Source of the DNA: an uncultured Alphaproteobacteria bacterium
GTDB lineage: Bacteria; Pseudomonadota; Alphaproteobacteria; HIMB59; GCA-002718135
Assembly: GCA_902576125.1 (NCBI GenBank)
Contig: CACGUF010000001.1
Span: 124,001 to 188,000 of the forward strand
Length of the DNA stretch: 64,000 nucleotides
Direction of reading: 5' to 3'
Position 1 is the stretch's first letter. Every line of letters begins with the position of its first letter. Below are positions 7,491-33,300 of the stretch, piece by piece. The notes under the pieces are model-generated. The model ran no database searches. It had not been told where the DNA came from and saw nothing but the letters and a program-made list of their open reading frames with translations. Both the position numbers and the translations under genes were made by a program.

Positions 7491-7566
7491 GGGTGTTTAG
7501 CTCAGTTGGTAGAGCATCTCGTTTACACCGAGAGGGTCGGGAGTTCAAGTCTCTCAACACCCACCA
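7491..7566 (+). tRNA. tRNA-Val (anticodon TAC)
   Basis: The acceptor GGGTGTT pairs with AACACCC. The D arm GCTC/GAGC, anticodon stem TCTCG/CGAGA with loop TTTACAC, and a T loop TTCAAGT are all present. Discriminator A and CCA are encoded. It begins directly after the hup hairpin and ends 3 bases before tRNA-Asp, so the two tRNAs are cotranscribed. Confidence 0.97.
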
Positions 7567-7569
7567 TGC

Positions 7570-7646
7570 GCGGGAGTAGTTCAGCTGGTTAGAACGCTGC
7601 CCTGTCACGGCAGAGGCCGCGGGTTCGAATCCCGTCTCTCGCGCCA
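7570..7646 (+). tRNA. tRNA-Asp (anticodon GTC)
   Basis: The acceptor GCGGGAG pairs with CTCTCGC (one G-T pair). The anticodon stem-loop CTGCC-CTGTCAC-GGCAG carries GTC, the T loop is TTCGAAT, the discriminator is G, and CCA is encoded at 7644-7646. It is the last gene before the complex I operon. Confidence 0.97.
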
Positions 7647-31100: not shown

Positions 31101-31581
31101 AATTAAACTATGTGGATCAGTTTTAGATATTAAAGAGAGATCAAATAAAGATGGAAGAAAATATGCATTTGTTACAGTGTCAGAAATTAATGCACAATAT
31201 GAACTATCTATATTTAGTGAAAATTTAAGTAAATATAGATCTCTTTTGCAGGAAGGGAATTTATTAATATTTGATATTGATATAATTATTAACAATAATG
31301 ATCCAAGATTTGTTATCAGAACAATACAAAAATTAGATAGTGAATTTAATAAATTAGAAAAAAAAATTGATATATTTATAGGGCCAAATCAATTAATTGA
31401 ATATAAAGATATATTATTTACCCAAAAAAACTCGTCTAAAAATAAAATCTCAATTTTTATGAATATCGATAATAAATTGATAAATTTTAATTCGAATAAT
31501 AACTATACACTTAAATCATATAAGCAGTTAGATATGTTAAAAAATTCAAAAAAATTAGATTACAACATAGATATTGCTTGA
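28183..31581 (+). CDS. dnaE: DNA polymerase III alpha subunit (DnaE1)
   Basis: DnaE is the replicative polymerase catalytic subunit. The 1132 residues hold an N-terminal PHP domain, palm with Asp392 and Asp394 in MPDFDIDF and Asp546 in KFDFLGL, fingers (VPVGPGRGSGAGS-like GPGRGSGAGS near 348-357), helix-hairpin-helix region near 840 and an OB fold near 1000. The PHP motif HLRCLSSYS has Leu11 where a second histidine is often found, so a working PHP nuclease is unlikely; proofreading would then depend on a separate DnaQ not in this window. The start overlaps lolD by four bases. Confidence 0.97.
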   Translation: MNKPFIHLRCLSSYSLSESTLKIKKLVNLAKKNNMPALAITDNNNMFGVFEFAQECINNAIQPIIGTSINLLDVQNKNKISQLSFLCKNEIGYKNLIYLSSLSYLGKNNAVGINVSDLEGHTEGLFCFIGGEFNPLLILHNQNKQTEDFIENLKKLFSKNLLFELQRINDVEIDSYEDEFIKVSNKYNIPLIGTNNIKFGEEDDFPAHDALLCVAQKTTINSGNRKTSNNQIAFKNHEQMLEIFSDIPEIIDNNLNVARSCSYYPREVLPKLPKFKNNLNLSENDLLVKIATNGLDKKIKENKILEKQNYLDRLNYEIEIINKMGFAGYFLIVSDFVNWAKANAIPVGPGRGSGAGSVAAWSLGITDLDPIKYSLLFERFLNPERVSMPDFDIDFCQIRRDEVIEYVNKKYGSESVAHIITFGTLASRAAVRDIGRVLEVPYGEVDTFAKLIPFNPSNPLTLAESIKSEKSLRDIINTDETLSNVVDISLKLEGVHRHASTHAAGVVIGDTNLSNVVPLYKDPNTETNATQFSMKYVEKAGLVKFDFLGLTTLSIINECVNLIKNEIHNFSLKNIPLDDPKTFQQLSRGNAVGVFQLESNGMSSVLKQLQPDKFEEIIAVVALFRPGPMDNIPSFCNRKHGREEINYIHPMLKDVLKETYGIIVYQEQVMEIAQMLSNYSLGEADLLRRAMGKKIQKEMDDQKNRFIEGALKNNISEKEASKIFDLVDKFAGYGFNKSHAAGYALISYQTAYLKANFPHEFMTATLNFSIDRTDKIISLKQELEKLEIPFLKPDINFSKEKFTIEKNKSDKSIRFGLSAIKGVGAKSIKSVVSIREKGSKFKSIIEFLKKVEGEVINKRQLEKLIQSGSFDSIDSNRSKLFFNVPQFVNLFGSSNHKLNQNLLFEEEEISFEDKNLFNQTIPEWNSSETLKNELEVVGFYFSDHPLKHYPQKFFEIQNITLFNDINVNENNKKIKLCGSVLDIKERSNKDGRKYAFVTVSEINAQYELSIFSENLSKYRSLLQEGNLLIFDIDIIINNNDPRFVIRTIQKLDSEFNKLEKKIDIFIGPNQLIEYKDILFTQKNSSKNKISIFMNIDNKLINFNSNNNYTLKSYKQLDMLKNSKKLDYNIDIA

Positions 31582-31602: not shown

Positions 31603-31668
31603 AAGCCTCAAAAAAACTAGCACACAGAAAAAACCGGTGTTTTTGTTTCTGTGGAGGTTTAACCGGAG
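31603..31668 (+). promoter_or_regulatory. Pseudoknotted mRNA leader of rpsB (putative S2 autoregulatory element)
   Basis: Three helices can be drawn by hand. P1 pairs AAGCCTC (31603-31609) with GAGGTTT (31654-31660, one G-T pair). P2 pairs CACAGAAA (31623-31630) with TTTCTGTG (31646-31653), its 3' strand abutting P1. A pseudoknot pairs loop CCGGT (31634-31638) with ACCGG (31662-31666). The last overlaps the Shine-Dalgarno GGAG (31665-31668), 6 bases before the rpsB ATG, so folding could block initiation. A structured element before the S2 gene has been described in Candidatus Pelagibacter ubique; I could not align to it. S2 as the ligand is inference. Confidence 0.75.
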
Positions 31669-31674
31669 ACAATA

Positions 31675-32439
31675 ATGAATTTACCTGAAATTAAAATTGA
31701 AGATCTTCTTGAAGCTGGCGTCCATTTTGGACACAATGTAAGAAGATGGAATCCAAAAATGGAAGAGTATATTTTTGGAGTTAGAAATAATATACATATT
31801 TTTGATTTAAGAATAACGGCAGATGCACTCAATAATGCTTTAGTAAAACTGCATGAAACTATAAGTAAGTCTGGGAAGATACTTTATGTTGGCACAAAAA
31901 AACAGTGTTCAGAAACAGTAAAAGATTTAGCTTCTATAAACAATAATTTTTTTGTTAATAAAAGATGGTTAGGAGGGACATTAACTAATTGGAAAACTAT
32001 ATCTAATTCAATAGATAGGTTAAATACATTGGATTCTAATTTAAATGATCCAGCTTTTACTAATAGTGTTTCAAAAAAAGAACTTCTTCAATTAACTAGA
32101 GAAAAAGAAAAACTTCATTTAAACTTAGGTGGAATTAAAGACCTTAATGGTAAACCAGATCTTATTGTAATTTTTGATGTTTTGAAAGATAAGTTAGCTG
32201 TTTTGGAGGCAAAAAAACTTAATATTCCAATTATTGGTATTGTAGATACAAATGCCGATCCTGAAGATATTGATTATATTATTCCAGGTAATGATGATGC
32301 TATAAGATCTATAAATATTTATAAAAATTATTTTCAACAAACAATAGAAGATGCTACCTCATTTGAAGAAAAGCATGAAAAAAAAATAATTCAAAAAGAA
32401 GAAATTAATGACAAAGAAAATAATGATGGAGAGCTGTGA
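31675..32439 (+). CDS. rpsB: 30S ribosomal protein S2
   Basis: S2 is a primary component of the 30S head/platform. The 254 residues begin [27 protein letters not shown] with the family signature, followed by GTKKQC and the second signature region [22 protein letters not shown]. The acidic and lysine-rich C-terminal tail is as in other alphaproteobacteria. It directly abuts tsf (TGA then ATG), forming the standard rpsB-tsf pair, and is preceded by the pseudoknotted leader. Confidence 0.98.
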
Positions 32440-33300
32440 ATGGCTGATGATTTGAAATTAGTAAAAGAGTTAAGAGATAAAACTGGTGCAGGTTTTTTAG
32501 ATTGTAAGGAAGCTCTAAATAATAACGATGGTAATATTGATAATGCTATTGATTATCTTAGAAAAAAAGGATTAGCTAAAGCTTCTAAAAAATCTACCAG
32601 AGAAGCAAATGAGGGTGCGGTTGGTTTTTTTCAAAATTCTAACAAATGCGCTATCATAAAGGTAAATTCTGAAACAGACTTTGCAGCTAAAGGAGATACA
32701 TTTTTAGACTTTATTGATTATTTAGGAAAAATCCTAATTGATTTAGATAAATCAGATCTAGATCTAGATACATTTTTAAATACACAGATAAATTCAAAAA
32801 CAATTAAAGAAATCGTTGATGAAATGATTGCTAAAATTGGAGAGAATATAGTTATTTCTGAATTAAGGATTTTTGATATAAATAAAAGTAATATATCTTT
32901 TTATGTTCATAATTCTTATAGAAAAAATATTGGAAAGATTATTTCAATAATTGAATATACAGCAAATAGAAATGATAATAATACACAAAATTTTGCAAAA
33001 AATTTATGTATGCATATTGCAGCTCTTAAACCAGAAGCAATTGATGAAAATAATTTAGATAAAGAAATAATCAATAAAGAATTAAATATACATAAAGAAT
33101 TAATTGCCAGTTCTGGTAAACCTGAAAATGTTATTGAAAAAATATTAGATGGAAAAATGAAAAAATTTTATTCAGAGGTAACATTGTTAAATCAGAATTT
33201 TGTTTTAGACCCTGATAAAACTGTTCAGGATATTATAAACTCTGATCATAAAAATAATAATTTCAAAATAAAGATGTTTAATTTTTTAACTTTATCATAA
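32440..33300 (+). CDS. tsf: Elongation factor Ts
   Basis: EF-Ts exchanges GDP for GTP on EF-Tu. The 286-residue protein has the N-terminal UBA-like domain with KELRDKTGAGFLDCKEAL, then the VNSETDFAA core motif (here KVNSETDFAAKGD), and two subdomains. It directly follows rpsB and abuts pyrH, so the three are translated from one message. The length is normal. Confidence 0.97.
   Translation: MADDLKLVKELRDKTGAGFLDCKEALNNNDGNIDNAIDYLRKKGLAKASKKSTREANEGAVGFFQNSNKCAIIKVNSETDFAAKGDTFLDFIDYLGKILIDLDKSDLDLDTFLNTQINSKTIKEIVDEMIAKIGENIVISELRIFDINKSNISFYVHNSYRKNIGKIISIIEYTANRNDNNTQNFAKNLCMHIAALKPEAIDENNLDKEIINKELNIHKELIASSGKPENVIEKILDGKMKKFYSEVTLLNQNFVLDPDKTVQDIINSDHKNNNFKIKMFNFLTLS

Follow-up and report, generated by a model that had tools for sequence, protein, structure and literature searches.

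A compact rpsB leader in the HIMB59 order, recognised as the rpsB motif, with a pseudoknot that overlaps the Shine-Dalgarno sequence

Sequence comparison shows that the RNA preceding rpsB, which encodes ribosomal protein S2, in a marine alphaproteobacterium apparently of the HIMB59/AEGEAN-169 type belongs to an established class, the rpsB motif (Meyer 2009; Rfam RF01815). The leader is a compact, AU-rich RNA in which a 5-bp pseudoknot, CCGGU/ACCGG, shares bases with the Shine-Dalgarno (SD) sequence. We consider it probable, on balance, that S2 stabilises this pseudoknot and that the pseudoknot then holds the SD, blocking expression of rpsB and tsf. Judged by the same comparison, the element is of a known kind, and what is new is its recognition in an order missed by Rfam. 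A passage in PMC10308909 states that the AEGEAN-169/HIMB59 group was placed outside SAR11 by several studies.

Results

The window (the whole stretch of DNA analysed, 64,000 nt) contains dnaE, which ends at 31581, followed after a 93-nt gap by rpsB, tsf, pyrH and frr. The names dnaE, tsf, pyrH and frr were assigned from the sequence and the known gene order, without family search; rpsB, which starts with the ATG at 31675, was the exception, and the relatives found for it by protein search include MarineAlpha5_Bin5 and AG-447-type uncultured alphaproteobacteria. An earlier note on this DNA had described two nested helices, a CCGGT/ACCGG pseudoknot and a GGAG in the gap, and the letters of all these elements and of the start codon were found at the positions given there.

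To delimit the element, leaders from 67 family relatives, the own genome counted among them, were compared. Pairwise identity was 97% in the core, CTAGCACACAGAAAAAACCGGTGTTTTTGTTTCTGTGGAGGTTnAACCGG, and fell to 86% over the first 27 bases of the coding sequence and to 43% in the spacer upstream of the core. By conservation, the element extends from 31617 to 31668 and not, as the earlier note had it, from 31603 to 31674 (Table 1).

Table 1. Coordinates of the rpsB leader elements and the adjoining genes in the window
Feature	Positions	Strand	Basis or remark
rpsB, ribosomal protein S2	31675..32439	+	254-aa ORF; relatives found by protein search
tsf, elongation factor Ts	32440..33300	+	ORF; directly abuts the rpsB stop codon
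Conserved leader core CTAGCACACAG...AACCGGAG	31617..31668	+	conservation in relatives; covariance-model match
P1, 5' strand CACAGAA	31623..31629	+	40-leader alignment
P1, 3' strand TTCTGTG	31647..31653	+	40-leader alignment
Inner A-U stem, 5' strand AAAA, closing the CCGGUG loop	31630..31633	+	40-leader alignment
Inner A-U stem, 3' strand TTTT	31640..31643	+	40-leader alignment
Pseudoknot, 5' strand CCGGT	31634..31638	+	invariant in the order; compensated class-wide
Pseudoknot, 3' strand ACCGG	31662..31666	+	invariant in the order; compensated class-wide
Linker GGAGGTTTAA joining P1 to the pseudoknot strand	31653..31662	+	conserved; possible protein contact site
SD, GGAG	31665..31668	+	first two bases common to the pseudoknot
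Outer-helix 5' strand AAGCCTC of the earlier note	31603..31609	+	rejected as a functional part

A promoter scan of the 64-kb window found no promoter on the + strand. In 36 of the 67 leaders (family f1; for example L037 and L031), an exact TATAAT lies 26-27 nt 5' of the CTAG core, and this fixed distance suggests a separate promoter for rpsB where dnaE ends. No exact TATAAT occurs at that position in the window's own leader.

Employing an alignment of 40 genus leaders, we examined the helices one by one. P1 was paired in 100% of cells (99-100% among relatives when the short inner stem is included); the corresponding values were 98.8% for the inner A-U stem and about 99% for the pseudoknot. Two-sided changes that preserved pairing were seen once in P1 (AU to GC, L013) and once in the inner stem (AU to UA, L017). 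A30 has an alternative partner in U46, with which it lengthens P1. In Pelagibacteraceae, covariation in P1 was strong, with 54 two-sided changed cells against 16.3 in shuffles. Accordingly, the inner of the two nested helices proposed earlier, an 8-bp pairing of CACAGAAA (31623-31630) with TTTCTGTG (31646-31653), was retained, whereas the outer one, a 7-bp pairing of AAGCCTC with GAGGTTT (31654-31660), was not. The outer helix (AAGCCUC/GAGGUUU) was paired in 50% of the 40 leaders and its 5' strand was not conserved; moreover, the longest candidates for it in the 67 leaders were, as a group, shorter than those in shuffled upstream sequence. Its complementarity is therefore due to chance. The minimum-energy fold of the single sequence contains this rejected helix, and the folding energy of the single leader is ordinary (z -0.56) and uninformative by itself.

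Between P1 and the pseudoknot strand, the linker keeps the pattern G.GG..UAA across most of the class, and no complementary strand is conserved along with it. The linker and the pseudoknot are conserved in sequence beyond structural need, as would be expected if a protein binds there.

The pseudoknot CCGGU/ACCGG was invariant in 87/87 leaders of the HIMB59 order and present in 39/40 Pelagibacteraceae leaders, and for this reason no covariation is seen within either group. Among the other members of the class, a script assigned a non-consensus 3' strand to 16 of 88 leaders, and for 12 of these 16 an exact upstream complement was present, compared to 1.1 expected by shuffling; as the script selected pairs for complementarity, the evidence lies in the shuffle control and not in the raw count. 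The compensated variants were CUGGU/ACCAG (six leaders), CCAGU/ACUGG (four) and UCGGU/ACCGA (two), so that compensatory changes fall at three of the five pairs. Two further leaders (CCGGU/ACUGG) retain pairing through a G-U wobble, and the remaining two (L190 and L242) were probably misplaced by the script. Comparable GC-rich matches of 5 bp were seen in 1.3% of dinucleotide-shuffled sequences and, elsewhere in the window, in 0.4% of 75-nt stretches. The loop-to-downstream pseudoknot of the earlier note is therefore conserved in the order and compensated across the class; when its three helices were checked in related leaders, compensation was found for P1 and, at the class level only, for the pseudoknot, and the outer helix was broken.

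The rpsB motif, which Meyer 2009 (PMC2704228) reported from Ca. P. ubique and from the majority of alphaproteobacteria, was defined there by P1, an optional P2 and P3 (short or absent in some) and a pseudoknot to a 3' extension. The leader studied here lies directly 5' of rpsB, has P1 and a pseudoknot between its loop and a 3' extension, and matches a profile of the motif. Neither P2 nor P3 was recognisable in the genus leaders, where the 4-bp A-U stem closes the loop instead; this does not exclude membership, because the definition allows their absence.

The profile was a covariance model made from 37 Pelagibacteraceae leaders, drawn from 40 genomes of one family and including none from the HIMB59 order. 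HTCC1062 is among the 40 genomes, and its rpsB start at 873284 adjoins the published gap 873155-873283. In the window the model gave one match, at 31612-31677 (40.7 bits, E 3.8e-7), and in the whole genome one significant match (E 7.5e-6), the next scoring 16.8 bits. A single match was obtained in each of 76 of the 162 genomes of the order, nearly all ending at the rpsB start. Many f1 genomes without a match are incomplete, and the protein search found no rpsB there either; in leaders of the HIMB59 family (f2), P1 differs and most fall under the model threshold. The suggested identity with the Ca. P. ubique motif is thus upheld by a model built on Pelagibacteraceae only.

The comparison with Rfam proposed in the earlier note pointed to the same site. 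The best match of RF01815 in the genome was the leader, at 18.2 bits against a cut-off of 40, which was passed by 0/162 genomes of the order; the motif therefore goes unannotated throughout the HIMB59 order. Seven of 20 leaders tested passed the cut-off, six of them from other alphaproteobacterial families. Ca. P. ubique itself scored 33.3 bits, also under the cut-off. In the window, the only Rfam matches above cut-off were four ordinary tRNA genes (His, Leu, Val and Asp; 1126-1365 and 7491-7646). Sub-threshold RF01815 matches in two genomes (L252 in G022, L253 in G058) lie within an apparent lepA coding sequence (FCGGLTDREM), where the stretch TGTGGAGGTTTAACCGA/TGA resembles the linker and pseudoknot strand of the leader by chance.

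We counted as SD a match of at least 4 nt at a spacing limited to 4-13 nt from the start codon. The SD so defined overlapped the pseudoknot 3' strand in 83/87 leaders of the HIMB59 order, compared to 7/86 of other alphaproteobacteria (Pelagibacteraceae excluded); the earlier observation that the pseudoknot takes half of GGAG therefore holds across the order. The distance from the pseudoknot end to the start codon was 5-9 nt (about 8) in the HIMB59 order, 6-10 nt in 41/41 Pelagibacteraceae leaders and a median of 17 nt in the 86 other alphaproteobacterial leaders. Three of the seven overlapping leaders outside the order (L072, L254 and L255) belong to one family with 1.4-Mb genomes, which hints that compaction of the leader accompanies genome streamlining.

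In Pelagibacteraceae, just 6/41 leaders had an SD of at least 4 nt at normal spacing. In the other 35 (within L256-L295), the pseudoknot strand is the sole G-rich element, and rpsB may be initiated there without an SD or with a very weak one.

The genome that carries the window has an intact anti-Shine-Dalgarno at its 16S 3' end, and SD use among the 52 genes of the window showed a modest excess over shuffles. An upstream GGAGG (31653-31657) was rejected as the true SD; it lies 17 nt from the ATG and is absent in HIMB59-family leaders. The duplex energies were -6.6 kcal/mol for the pseudoknot strands and -5.2 kcal/mol for GGAG with the anti-Shine-Dalgarno, so that the two pairings are comparable, as needed for a switch. 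Since the SD overlap is nearly constant in the order and rare in the other alphaproteobacteria outside Pelagibacteraceae, direct occlusion of the ribosome site in the HIMB59 order is likely. The conserved overlap likewise makes the blocking mechanism of the earlier note more plausible.

Discussion

From the observed structure, homology, conservation and SD overlap, we infer that S2 would be the ligand, that its effect would be repression and that the contest with the ribosome would be direct. When free S2 (perhaps with S1) exceeded the demand of 30S assembly, the excess would bind to P1, to the conserved GGAGGUUUAA linker and to the pseudoknot, which it would stabilise. The stabilised pseudoknot would retain the first bases of the SD, and 30S subunits would be barred from starting rpsB and the adjoining tsf. 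Because the pseudoknot and the SD share bases, 30S binding would be prevented directly for as long as S2 held the pseudoknot. A broader proposal, about which we are somewhat more doubtful than convinced, is that in streamlined marine alphaproteobacteria (the HIMB59 order, Pelagibacteraceae and at least one more family with small genomes) fusion of the pseudoknot with the SD, possibly repeated, turned the indirect control by S2 that is known from E. coli into direct competition with 30S subunits.

The closest alternative retains the motif and S2 as its ligand, but has repression work as in E. coli: S2-S1 bound to the upstream structure would block initiation or trap the 30S subunit indirectly, and the SD overlap would merely have come about as genomes shrank. 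According to passages in PMC10931766, the operator in E. coli does not include the ribosome binding site, and a small upstream deletion ends control by S2. Furthermore, most alphaproteobacteria keep the SD apart from the pseudoknot, so that the ancestral mode need not use the overlap, and the SAR11 and HIMB59 lineages that have it possess small genomes and short gaps. Yet the overlap is near-universal in the HIMB59 order, the pseudoknot strand is similarly close to the start codon in every Pelagibacteraceae leader, and at such spacing the two pairings are mutually exclusive, however the overlap arose. On this evidence we regard an indirect block as rather unlikely, though a serious contender.

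It is quite improbable that S2 feedback is absent from this lineage and that the leader tunes translation efficiency or mRNA stability by itself or answers to a different ligand. Within the literature surveyed, S2 binding was reported for enterobacteria only; recognition by S2 in E. coli reportedly depends on a bulge, and the RNA described here is shrunken, with P2 and P3 lost. However, the leader sits before rpsB in nearly all genomes where it was found, and the conservation of its linker and pseudoknot past structural need is of the kind that protein binding would produce. That the leader as a whole is no functional RNA, and its complementarity only an accident of an AT-rich spacer, is hardly credible. 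Chance does account for the outer helix and would agree with the ordinary folding z-score, but the core is conserved above the coding start. For P1 and the pseudoknot, chance is refuted by the match to a model from another order, by the covariation of P1 in Pelagibacteraceae and by the class-wide compensation in the pseudoknot. Direct occlusion of the SD by a pseudoknot that S2 would stabilise remains the reading we prefer.

With an operator and an SD that share bases, the HIMB59 order provides a naturally reduced system, about 50 nt long, in which to ask whether blocking is direct. Rfam annotation overlooks the rpsB motif in this entire marine order, and the 40-bit cut-off of RF01815 leads to under-reporting in AT-rich marine alphaproteobacteria.

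With the Ca. P. ubique motif the leader shares its place before rpsB-tsf, P1, the 5-bp CCGGU/ACCGG pseudoknot and the conserved linker, and it differs in having a short A-U stem to close the loop in place of P2 and P3. In the leader, the pseudoknot strand runs into the SD, GGAG(G), with which it is fused, whereas Pelagibacteraceae mostly have no separate SD and other alphaproteobacteria place theirs further downstream of the pseudoknot. RF01815 represents the same motif, differing in that the leader scores under its cut-off. Meyer 2009 (PMC2704228) included the E. coli rpsB-tsf leader in this motif, and we liken our leader to it on that account and not by our own alignment; both precede rpsB-tsf. 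In E. coli, S2 represses rpsB-tsf via the 5' UTR and S1 is required (Aseev et al. 2008, as cited in a passage of PMC10931766). That operator reportedly leaves the SD and the start codon outside, whereas the pseudoknot of our leader overlaps the SD. With no ribosome binding site in the operator, the blocking step in E. coli is unclear, and the enterobacterial precedent, by analogy, supports S2 as the probable ligand rather than the SD-blocking mode.
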